A stretch of DNA of 32,049 nucleotides, from assembly GCA_902806075.1 (NCBI GenBank), contig CADCVG010000061.1:1-32049 (forward strand). The letters run 5' to 3'. This document shows positions 23,914-32,049 of this stretch, piece after piece. The stretch is from an uncultured Rubrobacteraceae bacterium (GTDB taxonomy: Bacteria; Actinomycetota; Rubrobacteria; Rubrobacterales; Rubrobacteraceae). Below the pieces are notes generated by a model, which saw only the letters and a program-made list of their open reading frames with translations, was not told where the DNA came from and searched no databases. The position numbers were made by a program, and so were the translations under genes. How positions within the stretch are numbered: position 1 is the stretch's first letter; the number at the start of each line of letters is the position of its first letter.

Positions 23914-23986
23914 GGGCCGCTAGCTCAATTGGCAGAGCAAGAGACTCTTAATCTCTAGGTTCCAGGTTCGAGTCCTGGGCGGCTCA
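23914..23986 (+). tRNA. tRNA-Lys (anticodon CTT)
   Basis: GGGCCGC acceptor pairs with GCGGCTC; D-arm; anticodon arm AGAGA-CTCTTAA-TCTCT; T-arm CCAGG-TTCGAGT-CCTGG; TATAAT at 23897-23902; no encoded CCA. Confidence 0.93.
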
Positions 23987-24768: not shown

Positions 24769-24853
24769 CGGGGGCGGTAGGATTCGAACCTACGGGCGTT
24801 TTACCGCCTCTGGTTTTCAAGACCAGCGCATTCGTCCGCTCTGCCACGCCCCC
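24769..24853 (-). tRNA. tRNA-Ser (anticodon TGA)
   Basis: Minus strand GGGGGCGTGGCAGAGCGG...CTGGT-CTTGAAA-ACCAG...long variable arm...GTAGG-TTCGAAT-CCTAC-CGCCCCC. Confidence 0.93.
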
Positions 24854-25382: not shown

Positions 25383-26468
25383 CTATCGGCTCCGTATGTC
25401 GCTTCGAGGTTCTACATCGTCGTGCTCCTCCGTTCGACTGCCAGGGGTTTCGGGGGACGTTGTTCGTCTCGTTATGCTCTCCCGGTATTTGTCCTCGCCC
25501 AGGAACTTCTCCGCAGCGGTACGGCCCGATTCGAACAGCTTCAGCGCCCTCTCTTCCGAGAGATCGAACTCCGTAGTGCGTACTCCCAAAGTATCGATAG
25601 CGATAGTACGGTCGAAGTCGGATTCTTCTATGTAGAGGCGGTCGTGGGCCGCCATCATAGTGTCTACCAGGCTCCTCAAGTAAGCGACCACCGACAAGAC
25701 TCCACTGCGGGATCTCTCCGGCTGCGGCGGTCCTCCGGGGATGGGGGATCTCGGATCCTTCTCCACCAGCTTCAGACCGAAGGTGGGCCACTGCGGCTCT
25801 TCGGCATCGAAGAGCCAGACCGGGAAGTTCGATAGCATCCCACCGTCCACGATGAGGTGTTCCCTGCCCGTCTGCGCGTTGGCGAACTTTACCGGCTCGA
25901 AGAAGATCGGGATACTCATGCTCATGCGGACCGCCAGGGCTACGTTGAGGTCGTCCGGGTTTTCGATGCCGAGCTTGGGCGCGTCCCGGGGCAGGACCAG
26001 CAGGCGCCTCTCGGTCACGTCCGAGGCTATTACCTGCGCCTTGTAGCGGTATTTCAATTCGGCGTCTTCACGCCGCACCAGATCCCCAAAGGTTCTGATC
26101 CCCTTGGCCTCCAAGAGGTCGCGCATCCACACGAGGAAAGCCTCGCCTTCATAGATCCCCAGATCCTTCAGGACGCTCAGAGACCTTCCCGCCAGGGGGA
26201 TTCGATCCTCCCAGGCCTCGTCCTTGAAGTGATCGTAATCCAGTTCCCCGATGATCTTACGCAGCTCCGCGGAACTATACCCTGCGGCAATCAGCACGGC
26301 CACGATGGCACCAGCCGAGGCCCCGGCCATATTCTGAGGCTCGTAGCCCCGCTCCTCGAGGACGGAGAAGGCCCCAACCAGGGCGATCCCCTTCACCCCT
26401 CCGCCCTCGAACACCAGGTCCACGTATCTCTCGCGGTTCTCGCCTATCCCGGTCTCTTGTTCCACCAC
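25383..26468 (-). CDS. Patatin-like phospholipase
   Basis: 'LVFEGGGVKGIALVGAFSVLEERG' oxyanion hole, 'GASAGAIVAVL' (GxSxG), 'VDGGMLSNFPVWLFD' (DGG). Confidence 0.92.
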   Translation of the reverse strand: MVEQETGIGENRERYVDLVFEGGGVKGIALVGAFSVLEERGYEPQNMAGASAGAIVAVLIAAGYSSAELRKIIGELDYDHFKDEAWEDRIPLAGRSLSVLKDLGIYEGEAFLVWMRDLLEAKGIRTFGDLVRREDAELKYRYKAQVIASDVTERRLLVLPRDAPKLGIENPDDLNVALAVRMSMSIPIFFEPVKFANAQTGREHLIVDGGMLSNFPVWLFDAEEPQWPTFGLKLVEKDPRSPIPGGPPQPERSRSGVLSVVAYLRSLVDTMMAAHDRLYIEESDFDRTIAIDTLGVRTTEFDLSEERALKLFESGRTAAEKFLGEDKYRESITRRTTSPETPGSRTEEHDDVEPRSDIRSR

Positions 26469-26864: not shown

Positions 26865-27353
26865 TCACGTTCCAGGTTGTCCCGGGGCTGATCCCGGAGG
26901 CTGTCCTGGAGGTCGCTCCAGAGTTGGTTCCGGAGTTGGTCCTGTAGATTGTCCTGGGGCTGACCCCGGAGCTGGCTCCGCAGGCCGGTCCGGAGCCGGT
27001 CCCGCAGGTCGCTCCGGAGTTGGTCCCGCAGGTTGCCCCGTGATCCGTTTGCCTTCGTGGGGAGGTAGCGCGGCGAGGGCCTTATTGGCTCTATCGTTTG
27101 CTCTCTCTATCGCTCCTTGTGTTTTGTCGGTCGTGTCACTACTAACCTTGATACCGAAATAAGCGCCAAGCACAGTGCCTATAACGGTGAATAGGGAGCT
27201 CAATGCCGTAGTTACCTCCGCGGCCTCCTCAAACAAATCTCTGAAGATCGCCATGGTCGCTACGAAAGCAATCAAGACTACGACAAAAGCAAGTGCCACA
27301 ACGTAGAACGCGTAGGGGCGGCCTGCCGTATCTGCTTCTCCTCTTCGGTCCAC
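26865..27353 (-). CDS. Membrane protein with C-terminal Pro-rich low-complexity tail
   Basis: 'PYAFYVVALAFVVVLIAFVATMAIF' and a second TM, coiled helix, then 'PTPERPAGPAPDRPAEPAPGSAPGQSTGPTPEPTLERPPGQPPGSAPGQ'; RBS AAGGGAG before GTG at 27353. Confidence 0.5.
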   Translation of the reverse strand: MDRRGEADTAGRPYAFYVVALAFVVVLIAFVATMAIFRDLFEEAAEVTTALSSLFTVIGTVLGAYFGIKVSSDTTDKTQGAIERANDRANKALAALPPHEGKRITGQPAGPTPERPAGPAPDRPAEPAPGSAPGQSTGPTPEPTLERPPGQPPGSAPGQPGT

Positions 27354-27489
27354 AGTTGCACTCCCTTCTTTGTCGGTTAAACACTCCAATAGTGCACTCA
27401 CGGCCGTTCGTTGTTCGGCGCGGTTTGTCAGCTGTACCGTAGGGTGTTGTTGGTGCTCCGCACGAAGAGCTTCAGCTTAGAGTCCGTGT

Positions 27490-27614: not shown

Positions 27615-29000
27615 TTACAGGAAGGTGATGTGGATGTGGTTGTTATGCTGCGCATCGCTAGCGAGATCGTAATCGTGCCATTTCTCTAAGCCCCTTCCCG
27701 GGGTCCAGAGGTAGCCTTTGGAAAGGTACCAGAGAATATTCGGCGGGTTCGGGTCGTTAAAGAAGCGTTTGAGCACCTCGTCGTGCAGGTACCAATCCAG
27801 CGCATAGCCGCGTCCATCAGAGTCCCACACGTCGAGCGAGACGGCGTCGTATCTGTTGTCGTAGTTATCGGGGATCGGTGGATGGTTCCAGTAGGTGTTG
27901 ATGTAGATATCGTCAAACTCGGCCTCGACTTTATCTACGAGTGCCTTTACATCCTCACGCCAGTCGAAGCGGGTTGGATGTTGGTCCACGTACCATCCCG
28001 AACCGGGATGCCTCAGGCCCTTTTTGACCGGGGCCGGCTCGGCTGTGTTCGGACCGTATAGCCAGTGGCCGCTGTCAGTTCGGAAGACTGCGTCCTTGTA
28101 CGCGTCAGAGCAGAGGTAAGCGCCCGTTCCATCCACGATCCAACCCCGCGAATTACGTGAGACCCGAACCTGGTCGGACTCCTCGCCGTTCTCGGGTGCA
28201 GGACCGTCCTCGATGTCGGGAGCGTAGAACCAGCCTTCGGCGTTGGTATGCAAAGCCGCATCAGGCCGGTTAATGTAGCGGACAAAGGCACCGTTGGGTC
28301 GAGCAACGATCCAACCTTGGGGATCGCGATCCACAAGCAAGGTTTCGTACTCGGTTACGGGCTCCGCCGCGCCTGTTTCCTGAGTGCTCAGATCGAGATC
28401 ATCGGGGAGTACCTCTAGTGCCTTGTTGTAGTACGTAATCCTGTGATCGTAGCCATTCCACCCACCGTTGACGCCAACACACAGCGCATCTATGTCGCGT
28501 TCATCAGCGTAGAGGTTGAGGTTCGTCGGCCAGCCGTACAGCCCCCGATAATCGTTGCCTCGCTTCGTCCAGTACCAACCTGCAGACCTAAATCCGTTTC
28601 TGATCTGGTCGATGGAGAGCGGGTGAGGGCCCCCTATGAGGGTCGGGTTGTTAACTAGGTCGAGACCAAGATCCTCACCACAGGCCGTATGATTGCCTCT
28701 CCCGGTGATCTGTATCGGGCCGTGGCCCTTGAACCATCGGCCGTCGCCCTCATAGATGTTGCCAAGGTCCCGGCGCCACTCGTAGGCTGAGCCGTCAGCC
28801 AGTTCCTCCCAGTAGATAAGCTCACCCGACTCCGCCCCAAGTTGCGAGAGGAAACCTGCCACACGGTGCTTCGTGGTGATGTCGGACTCCTGGCAAGCAG
28901 AGATGAGGTAGGGCAGGTACTTTTCGGCCTGTTCCTTCGTAACCGTGTTGGGATCGGTGTAGATCGCTACGATATGTTCGGCAGTGAGGGTGCTAGCCAC
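27615..29000 (-). CDS. GH19-type lytic enzyme (endolysin/chitinase-like) with two internal repeats and a C-terminal M15-peptidase-like region
   Basis: 'VAGFLSQLGAESGELIYWEE', 'GRWFKGHGPIQITGRGNHTACGEDLGLDLVNNP' GH19 core; C-terminal 'DAVSLDVWDSDGRGYALDWYLHDEV...HNNHIHITFL'; GTG start with AAAGGAG RBS. Confidence 0.8.
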   Translation of the reverse strand: MASTLTAEHIVAIYTDPNTVTKEQAEKYLPYLISACQESDITTKHRVAGFLSQLGAESGELIYWEELADGSAYEWRRDLGNIYEGDGRWFKGHGPIQITGRGNHTACGEDLGLDLVNNPTLIGGPHPLSIDQIRNGFRSAGWYWTKRGNDYRGLYGWPTNLNLYADERDIDALCVGVNGGWNGYDHRITYYNKALEVLPDDLDLSTQETGAAEPVTEYETLLVDRDPQGWIVARPNGAFVRYINRPDAALHTNAEGWFYAPDIEDGPAPENGEESDQVRVSRNSRGWIVDGTGAYLCSDAYKDAVFRTDSGHWLYGPNTAEPAPVKKGLRHPGSGWYVDQHPTRFDWREDVKALVDKVEAEFDDIYINTYWNHPPIPDNYDNRYDAVSLDVWDSDGRGYALDWYLHDEVLKRFFNDPNPPNILWYLSKGYLWTPGRGLEKWHDYDLASDAQHNNHIHITFL

Positions 29001-29103
29001 GGCTAAATCTCCTTTCCTGCACGAGAGCCTGCCCAGTGGTACTGTAGCGCTTCGCGACGCTGATCAGGGGTTTCCCCCCGATGCGGACTACGTAAGTCGT
29101 CAC
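28993..29103 (-). CDS. 36-aa small ORF overlapping the lytic-enzyme start
   Basis: GTG with AAAGGAG RBS; MTTYVVRIGGKPLISVAKRYSTTGQALVQERRFSRG*; its stop overlaps the downstream GTG (GTGGCTAG). Confidence 0.35.
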   Translation of the reverse strand: MTTYVVRIGGKPLISVAKRYSTTGQALVQERRFSRG

Positions 29104-29172: not shown

Positions 29173-29223
29173 TTACGCCACCTTCAGCTCAAGGGTTCCG
29201 CTACGGATTTCCGCTTCAGCCAT
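29173..29223 (-). CDS. 16-aa leader-like ORF MAEAEIRSGTLELKVA*, resembling the start of the 30278 gene (MADAE...)
   Basis: RBS GGAGAGGAG before ATG, within a promoter/leader duplicated from the 30278 gene. Confidence 0.35.
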   Translation of the reverse strand: MAEAEIRSGTLELKVA

Positions 29224-29277
29224 CGCTCCTCTCCAAACCGTTTTGCACGATCTTTCTAATGATTAGAGCAGAGGGCG

Positions 29278-29310
29278 ATGAATTCCTAATGAATTGCCGA
29301 TGAATCGGGC
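29278..29310 (-). promoter_or_regulatory. SARP-box-like array: three ATGAAT units at 11-bp spacing (minus strand NNNNATTCAT)
   Basis: ATGAATTCCTA|ATGAATTGCCG|ATGAATCGGGC; extended -10 TGCTCTAAT begins downstream on the minus strand. Confidence 0.6.
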
Positions 29311-29364
29311 GCAGGTAACACGTCAGAAAACCGCGAAGCGGTGGCTTTGACAACCGTTCGCCCT

Positions 29365-29928
29365 CTACGCGATCTGCACTGCCGCGGCCGCCCGGAAGCT
29401 CGGGGACCTCATCAACCACAAACAATCGGCCTTGGACAGCCAGCACCGTCCGTGATATCCCCACCCGTCGCCCCAAGAGTTGAAGAGCCTCAAGGAGCCC
29501 CACTTCGAGACCCCGCGGCAGAAGATCGCGTGGCCGCCCGTCTGACGCCCCGTGGGCCGGATGAACCCCTGGACGTCCGGACGGTACATGCCCTCATACC
29601 AGTCCATGCCGAGCATGATCCCACCCTTGTAGAGGAGCCACTTGTGGATCTCGTCGAAGGTCCGCGCCCAGGCATACTCCTTTATGAAGCCGCGCTCCCG
29701 AAGCACCTTGCACGCCGCGTTTACCGACGAGCCATCGTAGTTCTCACCCGGCCACTCGTCGAGCTGCTGGGCGCGTTTGTAAACCTCGAAGGCATAGTCG
29801 TTGCCTAACCTGCCCATTATGGGCTCCGCATTGAGGAAGTTGGTGGCCGAAAAACCTGTACAGGCGCCCTCCTGCCCCTGATCTAGAGGGGATCCGGTCC
29901 TCCAATACCTCTCTACCGGCGCCCTCAA
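29365..29928 (-). CDS. Papain-like (C1A) cysteine peptidase lacking signal and propeptide
   Basis: 'LDQGQEGACTGFSATNFL' (Cys), 'GGHAIFCRG' (His), 'LFNSWGDGWGYHGRCWLS' (Asn); TTG start overlaps the upstream stop (TTGA). Confidence 0.78.
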   Translation of the reverse strand: MRAPVERYWRTGSPLDQGQEGACTGFSATNFLNAEPIMGRLGNDYAFEVYKRAQQLDEWPGENYDGSSVNAACKVLRERGFIKEYAWARTFDEIHKWLLYKGGIMLGMDWYEGMYRPDVQGFIRPTGRQTGGHAIFCRGVSKWGSLRLFNSWGDGWGYHGRCWLSKADCLWLMRSPSFRAAAAVQIA

Positions 29929-30278
29929 CTGCGAATCGTTCCCGCGAGCTCGATGGTCCCGCCGAAGTCCGGCAGGTTGAGGCCCTCGACATGCGTGGCC
30001 AACGGGTGCTGCTCGACGGGGTTGTCCGATCCTTCTTCTCTGTCGGACACAAAGCCCAGCGGGTAATCCGATACCTTTAGCAGGTCGACGAGGTTCGAGG
30101 CCTGGCGAAAGCTCTCGACCCACTCCTCGTCCAGATCGACCGAGTAGGTGACCTGCATCCCTACCTGCCCCGGATGCACTTCTTCATAAGTGTCCATGAA
30201 CGGGCTCGCGTGGGCGACGTCCCGTTCCTCATAGGGCAGCTTGTGGCACGTCACCAAATATCTCTCCGCATCGGCCAT
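29925..30278 (-). CDS. Uncharacterized 117-aa protein translationally coupled to the C1A peptidase
   Basis: ATG with GGAGAGGAGGAG RBS; stop TGA overlaps the peptidase TTG. Confidence 0.6.
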   Translation of the reverse strand: MADAERYLVTCHKLPYEERDVAHASPFMDTYEEVHPGQVGMQVTYSVDLDEEWVESFRQASNLVDLLKVSDYPLGFVSDREEGSDNPVEQHPLATHVEGLNLPDFGGTIELAGTIRS

Positions 30279-30334
30279 TGCTCCTCCTCTCCGAACCGCT
30301 TTGCAACACCTTTTGGTGATCAGAGCATAGAGCG

Positions 30335-30378
30335 ATGATTTGCCGATGAATCCGAGATGAATTTTGGATGAGTCGACA
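30335..30378 (-). promoter_or_regulatory. SARP-box-like array: four ATGA(A/T/G)T units at 11-bp spacing
   Basis: ATGATTTGCCG|ATGAATCCGAG|ATGAATTTTGG|ATGAGTCGACA; extended -10 TGCTCTGAT downstream on the minus strand. Confidence 0.65.
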
Positions 30379-30868: not shown

Positions 30869-32049
30869 CTAGCGGAGGCCGTCCTTTGAAAGGCTCGTGT
30901 AGAAGGCCCGAGTCTCCGGCGAGGGCGTAGCGTCATACTCGTTCCCGAGCGCCTGCTCGCACAACCTGTACTGCCGTAACGCTCGGGCTCGCTGTCCGAG
31001 GCGGACGAAACACTCCATAAGCAGGCGGTGGGTGTCTTCGTCACAGCGGTCTTTCTCCAGGATCCGGTAGCAGGCCCTTATGCTCTCGTGGCACCACCCG
31101 TTCCGCATGTAGTAGATGGCGAGACGCTTTAGCATGTCGGTGTAGGCGGTGACCAAACGTTCACGCTCGATCGCGGTCCACTCTTCGTACAGGTCCTCGA
31201 CGAGGAAGTCGTCCCGGTATAGCTCTATGGCCTTCTCGTACTCGGCGCTGGCTTCCCGGATCCACCCGTCTTTATCGAACTGTTGACCGCTGGCGTAGTG
31301 CATATCGAACGCGTCCCTGTCAGAGTAGACCCTAACGTTTGGAGAGAGGCGATAGTAGCCACCCTCGAGCACGACGCGGATCGGAGAGACCACGAGCGTC
31401 TCCGCGCCGCTCAAGACTTTGCGCAAGGCGCAGACAGCCGAGTTGAGCGACCAGCGGGCTTTCTTGAGGTCGGACTCTGGCCACAGCCACCCCATCAGGT
31501 AGTCCTGTGTCACAGGCCGGGGCACGTTCGCCACTAGATATCTGAGGATGGCCAGCGCTTTGCCGTGATGACCCAGAGGCAAGGCCCTACCGTGGGAAAG
31601 GATTTCGAAGCGCCCGAAGAAACGGACTTCCAGATGATGCGGGGCGGCAAGGACACTATCGGACGGAGTTTTCTGATCATTGGTCGGCGCTGTCCGTTCG
31701 CCCGGGGTTCGAGCTTCGACCGGTGGTGAGACGCTGCGCGCCTTTACTCCTGTTGACCGGTTCGCTGGAGAATCAGAGGGTAGGTAGCTAGCATCGGGGA
31801 CCTGTCCCCCCGTGTAGGCTGCTAGTACCGCCGCGGCAGCGCTCACCTCCTGGTGGCTCAACTGGATCCAGCTCCGGCGCAGCGTTTCGCGGACCTCCCG
31901 CGACTCTTCTCCGTCCAACTGCCCATGGCTCAACGCCACGCACAGTTGCCCGGCCACCCGGGCAGTCTCGATCGAGAAGCGATTGGTGAAGCCCGCGGCA
32001 GAGCGTAAAATTTGCCGGAAACACTCGGCGGCCAGCGCGTACTCTTGCC
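30869..32049 (-). CDS. SARP-like transcriptional regulator (winged helix + BTAD), 5' end beyond the window
   Basis: 'LEVRFFGRFEILSHGRALPLGHHGKALAILRYLVAN...LMGWLWPESDLKKARWSLNSAVCALRKVL' plus BTAD 'EYEKAIELYRDDFLVEDLYEEWTAIERERL...RILEKDRCDEDTHRLLMECFVRLGQRARALRQYRLCEQAL'; frame stays open to the window edge. Confidence 0.85.
   Translation of the reverse strand, partial: QEYALAAECFRQILRSAAGFTNRFSIETARVAGQLCVALSHGQLDGEESREVRETLRRSWIQLSHQEVSAAAAVLAAYTGGQVPDASYLPSDSPANRSTGVKARSVSPPVEARTPGERTAPTNDQKTPSDSVLAAPHHLEVRFFGRFEILSHGRALPLGHHGKALAILRYLVANVPRPVTQDYLMGWLWPESDLKKARWSLNSAVCALRKVLSGAETLVVSPIRVVLEGGYYRLSPNVRVYSDRDAFDMHYASGQQFDKDGWIREASAEYEKAIELYRDDFLVEDLYEEWTAIERERLVTAYTDMLKRLAIYYMRNGWCHESIRACYRILEKDRCDEDTHRLLMECFVRLGQRARALRQYRLCEQALGNEYDATPSPETRAFYTSLSKDGLR

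Follow-up and report, generated by a model that had tools for sequence, protein, structure and literature searches.

To our knowledge, almost everything established about Streptomyces antibiotic regulatory proteins (SARPs) concerns their role as switches of antibiotic clusters. Their operators consist of 11-bp (or 22-bp) direct repeats that overlap the -35 region, with the 3' repeat placed 8 bp from the -10 element (PMC10936776, PMC10972967), and the published repeat unit of AfsR is CGTT(T/C)ATCGNN (PMC10972967). Here we describe an arrangement of this kind in a 32,049-nucleotide stretch of contig CADCVG010000061.1 (assembly GCA_902806075.1; hereafter the window) from a Rubrobacteraceae metagenome-assembled genome (MAG; 75% complete, 2.4 Mb), in which two repeat arrays, A and B, lie beside the gene of a small BTAD-domain regulator. 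Our reading, to which we give a probability of roughly 0.77 on the strength of sequence comparison, is that the arrays are SARP-type operators and promoters, and that the adjacent regulator binds them and switches on a dispersed regulon that amounts to a lytic arsenal.

Read on the minus strand, in the sense of the genes behind them, both arrays take the form (ATTCATC-N4)3-4, and behind them stands an extended -10 element, TGnTCTRAT, present as TGCTCTAAT behind array A and TGCTCTGAT behind array B at a fixed distance from the last repeat unit (Table 1). The original prediction had placed three units at A and four at B, described the 11-bp repeats as exact, and noted behind each array a TCTRAT with an upstream TG and a similar leader. 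The unit counts, the hexamers TCTAAT and TCTGAT with TG one base upstream, and the leaders, which align from array to start codon as recognizable copies of each other, all read as it had claimed; exactness holds for the period of the repeats but not for their unit sequences. The pattern ATGANT-N5-ATGANT-N5-ATGA with up to two mismatches has three matches in the window, all within the two arrays, where dinucleotide shuffles lead one to expect 0.02, and the weight-matrix scores of 55.4 (A) and 50.4 (B) compare with a maximum of 18.8 in 4.3 Mb of shuffled sequence. No known RNA element was found at the array sites, the RNA-element search returning only tRNAs. A search of the remaining genome yielded a single further match, at positions 4378-4416 of contig C52, preceding an operon that encodes a contractile sheath, a gp19 tube and a T4-type baseplate.

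The motif extends well beyond this genome. Across 40 Rubrobacteraceae genomes (G numbers below; a class-level search gave the same 40 as the family-level search), a strict pattern of three ATTCAT units at 11-bp spacing with at most two mismatches had 52 matches, spread over 14 genomes, and the reversed control had none. A second, independent pattern, built from two units and extra conserved letters that include the -10, gave 88 matches against one in its control and extended the motif to Rubrobacter marinus, G021 and G022. The lack of strict-pattern sites in G021, G022 and G030 was traced to the threshold, sites being found there by the matrix or the second pattern, and the weak matches that occur singly in G001, G010 and G012 were attributed to background. 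A logo of 36 sites aligned on the last unit reveals conserved letters that were no part of the search, namely a C after the units and then G, C and C, and above all those of the extended -10, T-G in columns +7/+8 and T-A-n-n-A-T in columns +10 to +15, at its fixed distance. Logo column +1 is the last of the 8-bp unit ATTCATCG and column +10 the first of the -10, which leaves an 8-bp gap. Like the AfsR/afsS box and the Streptomyces operators of ActII-ORF4, DnrI and PimR, these sites thus carry 11-bp direct repeats in place of a -35 element and an 8-bp gap to the -10; the unit is close to that of AfsR, and the candidate binder likewise combines a winged helix with BTAD. The SARP-box reading offered originally is supported by the period, the unit, the gap and the extended -10, together with the co-occurrence with, and adjacency to, the BTAD gene described below. 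The Streptomyces operators differ in having two units, whereas most strong sites in Rubrobacteraceae have three to four and a conserved extended -10.

Judged by its position relative to genes, this family-wide motif behaves as a promoter: an open frame with a Shine-Dalgarno start lies 28-65 bp behind the -10 at 22 of 59 sites scoring at least 30, whereas positions drawn at random from the same DNA show one in 7.1% of cases (p = 3e-11). The nearly identical array copies of G032, and the duplicated look of leaders A and B, would fit a lineage-specific interspersed repeat without regulatory role. We regard such a repeat as a barely credible explanation, however, given that sites stand at promoter distance before starts with the -10 conserved at a fixed distance, that spacer letters vary from site to site while the repeat units are kept, and that the target families recur between genera. 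Many sites occur in each of G025 and G023, some of them as divergent pairs between peroxidase, lipase and haloperoxidase genes (loci L214 on contig C158 and L217 on C304 of G025; L207 at the end of C51 of G023).

Together with its relatives, small BTAD proteins of 46-63% identity over the SARP region, the window regulator forms a subfamily that is present in 16 of the 40 genomes (as fragments in G025). BTAD and Trans_reg_C domains occur in 15 of 15 subfamily members, the Trans_reg_C match of the window protein falling 2 bits below the Pfam cut-off. The protein's alignment with AfsR (E = 3.4e-8) spans the entire SARP region, winged-helix domain first and BTAD second, and the nearest regulators of known structure are AfsR and EmbR. 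Of the AfsR contact positions, W74, E76 and the phosphate-contacting R94 and K95 are conserved in the regulator alignment, while S takes the place of T88 and A or G that of R92; therefore, the contacts and details of recognition should differ in part from those of AfsR. Named close relatives come from Rubrobacteraceae, among them the complete genome of Rubrobacter marinus, or from actinobacterial MAGs, and the close subfamily was found solely in Rubrobacteraceae. BTAD homologues outside the family have no site in the nearby DNA, where the best matrix score, 16.6, is at the null level.

Sites and regulator travel together. Strict-pattern sites are present in 12 of 16 regulator-bearing genomes versus 2 of 24 others (Fisher p = 2e-5), and second-pattern sites, weak singles counted, in 15 of 16 versus 5 of 24 (Fisher p = 1e-5). 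Within the window's genus, all five genomes that have the close regulator also have sites and the five that lack it have none, a pattern that speaks against shared ancestry as the sole explanation. In eight of the 16 regulator-bearing genomes (G000, G002, G021, G022, G023, G030, G032, G038) the regulator gene has a site no more than ~3.5 kb away; at ~5 sites per 3.4 Mb genome, chance should produce such proximity in well under one genome. In Rubrobacter marinus SCSIO 52915 (NZ_CP045121) the regulator gene lies at 620236-621393, and there are two sites, at 612699-612730 (+) and 620092-620123 (-). In G002 the regulator stands behind a site-bearing gene of the same strand. The refuting case named in the original prediction, absence of the arrays from relatives that keep both regulator and operons, was not borne out: one relative, G038, has regulator, array and endolysin-like gene arranged as in the window. 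General autoregulation through the same box was considered and rejected, the upstream part of the window regulator gene, on contig C27, carrying no site. At the level of co-occurrence across these genome sequences, then, the pairing of regulator and box is real.

Other proteins could in principle read the boxes. The strongest rival holds that a PhoP/OmpR-type response regulator binds them and that the BTAD gene is merely a regulon member or a neighbour: in Streptomyces, PhoP too recognizes direct repeats of 11 bp and binds the AfsR box (PMC10972967), and a few of the targets have phosphate esters as substrates (PAP2, exonuclease-endonuclease-phosphatase, patatin). Most targets, however, are unrelated to phosphate supply, and Trans_reg_C genes are present in 40 of 40 genomes, with or without the motif, and therefore offer no explanation for its patchy distribution, which instead tracks the BTAD subfamily; we consider this rival unlikely. 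Control of the motif by a large AfsR-like BTAD-ATPase protein in place of the small regulator appears more remote still. Such genes are common in the family and the window genome has one (contig C56, open frame of 1240 codons), but they occur in most genomes, site-free ones included, and none was seen adjoining sites.

For the small BTAD regulator, which would act both as binder and as activator, we propose that at least two protomers occupy adjacent 11-bp ATTCATCG repeats, that these repeats stand in for a -35 element, and that the bound regulator would recruit RNA polymerase to the extended -10 and so activate the dispersed regulon. Its predicted members, assigned to families by Pfam and PHROGs, would form an arsenal of phage-endolysin-type peptidoglycan hydrolases, phospholipases, peptidases, peroxidases, oxidases and RHS proteins. 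Among the genes behind sites are those for GH19 endolysin-like proteins (window, G038, G021, G022), GH25 lysozymes (G032, G006) and an amidase (G025), for patatins (G021, G022, G025), and for peptidases of the C1 (window, G006), S8 (G018, G024), M28 and M36 (both G032) types. The oxidising enzymes comprise vanadium-haloperoxidase-like proteins (G002, G023, G036), animal-type haem peroxidases (G023, G009), DyP, tyrosinase, GMC oxidases and copper amine oxidases; RHS proteins (G006, G007) and an eCIS-core protein (extracellular contractile injection system, eCIS; G025) are further examples, as are a small Gmad2-domain protein in Rubrobacter marinus (by resemblance) and G022 (by Pfam match; L107 688, L204 387) and two large G025 proteins that matched no Pfam or PHROG family (L092:755-2179 and L090:3970-6996, both on the minus strand). 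Where the Streptomyces SARPs control antibiotic clusters, these sites thus precede genes for lytic and oxidising enzymes and tail sheaths. By a simple hydrophobicity rule only 8 of 42 targets have a hydrophobic N-terminal stretch, and in three of the eight this is the patatin core and not a signal. Because S8, M36, GH19 and GH25 hydrolases belong to families that are usually secreted and here have no signal peptide, release by lysis or through an injection machine, rather than by the Sec route, is suggested, and the regulon products would probably serve antagonism or programmed lysis.

A contractile machine does stand behind some of these promoters. With two sheath models, sheath genes were detected in three of the 40 genomes, and a site lies directly upstream in all three: in G000, the window genome, where the C52 sheath operon and the regulator are on different contigs and are joined by the motif; in G025 (contig C16), where sheath, tube and Pvc16_N are neighbours; and in G020, where a tail sheath alone is shown behind the site and could belong to a prophage tail. 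Where present, contractile (phage-tail-like) sheath operons would accordingly be counted in the predicted regulon. As general targets, eCIS_core genes were rejected, a site preceding just one of three in the stretch of G025 examined. The eCIS survey of Geller et al. (2021) places BTAD among the shell domains of eCIS loci, with a probable regulatory role, and the parts of it drawn on here describe no binding site or dispersed regulon (PMC8213781). In Streptomyces, phage-tail-like particles likewise have a dedicated activator, SlpR (SCO4263), which differs in being LuxR-type and encoded within the cluster, with no SARP repeats in the portions of that report used here (PMC8505568). It is tempting to extend our reading so that one SARP-type activator coordinates a cytoplasmic, signal-less arsenal with an injection machine encoded elsewhere, the arsenal being either cargo of the machine or freed by programmed lysis, but we put this forward tentatively and would sooner doubt it than assert it.

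Several observations weigh against control of such an arsenal by the small BTAD regulator. The R92 that is replaced by A or G contacts a base in AfsR. G018 and G020 have sites and no regulator was found in either, both being draft MAGs of ~640 contigs, and in G039, whose regulator is the most distant, there is no site. Several sites of lower score are followed by no convincing gene, and some targets fit an arsenal poorly, namely a GntR regulator, metabolic oxidoreductases and ssb, the gene of the single-strand-binding protein, which is preceded by a site in three genomes of genus g5 (L076 2145, L079 6607, L082 2997). Lastly, the contractile link is not general: most regulator-bearing genomes have no sheath gene, and lysis or another release route would have to serve there.

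Within the window, the picture of two adjacent operons needs some correction (Table 1): the gene behind promoter B is frameshifted and promoter A is followed first by two tiny open reading frames (ORFs), beyond which lies the endolysin-like gene. The membrane protein and patatin genes further downstream possibly belong to operon A as well; close relatives of the patatin in G021 and G022 carry their own site beside the regulator. In the papain-like gene the N-terminal frame stops at 29925, and a different frame takes over for the catalytic part (QGQEGACTGF, GGHAIF, NSWG). Its relative in G006 (L078:6310-6990; PHROG 16701 peptidase) is intact, with a site 69 bp upstream, and the window gene may therefore be a pseudogene or reflect an assembly error. 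The BTAD assignment of the regulator gene holds, but the gene is truncated and its N-terminal part lies on contig C27, the end of which (L105 9691-10325) matches window positions 31415-32049, an overlap of 635 bp that is 98% identical and has exact ends; a strain-variable spot probably broke the assembly inside the gene. Two tRNA genes, at 23914-23986 (+) and 24769-24853 (-), flank the endolysin-patatin-regulator region, a possible integration spot. A prophage origin of the window genes was considered, the endolysin and peptidase being phage-like, but would not account for the motif, as sites also precede unrelated non-phage genes in many genomes.

Table 1. Arrays, promoter elements and genes of the window
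Feature	Positions	Strand	Remarks
Array A	29278-29310	-	Three 11-bp direct repeats: ATTCATC-GGCA ATTCATT-AGGA ATTCATC-GCCC
Array B	30335-30378	-	Four 11-bp direct repeats; unit closest to the -10 is AATCATC
Promoter A, extended -10	29262-29270	-	TGCTCTAAT; hexamer TCTAAT 29262-29267, TG at 29269-29270
Promoter B, extended -10	30319-30327	-	TGCTCTGAT; hexamer TCTGAT 30319-30324, TG at 30326-30327
16-codon ORF MAEAEIRSGTLELKVA	29173-29223	-	First start codon behind promoter A; strong Shine-Dalgarno; leader copies leader B
36-codon ORF	28993-29103	-	Overlaps start of endolysin-like gene
Endolysin-like GH19 protein, no signal peptide	27615-29000	-	Pfam Glyco_hydro_19, E = 1.2e-6; PHROG 181 endolysin, E = 3.5e-37
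Small membrane protein, proline-rich tail	26865-27401	-	ORF; no Pfam or PHROG family match
Patatin-like phospholipase	25383-26468	-	Pfam Patatin, E = 2.5e-33
Papain-like (C1-type) peptidase gene behind promoter B	29365-30278	-	Frameshift near 29925-29950
Small SARP/BTAD regulator	30869-32049	-	Pfam BTAD, E = 1.4e-19; Trans_reg_C, E = 7.7e-5; cut by contig end

The original suggestion of an undescribed regulon is supported, although its scope was drawn too small, the predicted targets being many and scattered and including contractile sheath genes. Our search of the open-access literature found no report of this regulator-box pairing. BTAD genes near eCIS loci had been noted before in the survey cited above (PMC8213781); beside what the parts of it used here record, what appears to be new is a SARP circuit with an unusual regulon, its scale and its connection with a contractile injection system. 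Such a regulon, in which a SARP-type regulator would govern lytic and oxidising enzymes together with contractile systems, would widen the known range of SARP control, and its promoter boxes would provide a handle on unlinked cargo and accessory genes of injection systems that does not depend on gene neighbourhood. The trigger of such systems would, moreover, become testable in a cultured species, Rubrobacter marinus.
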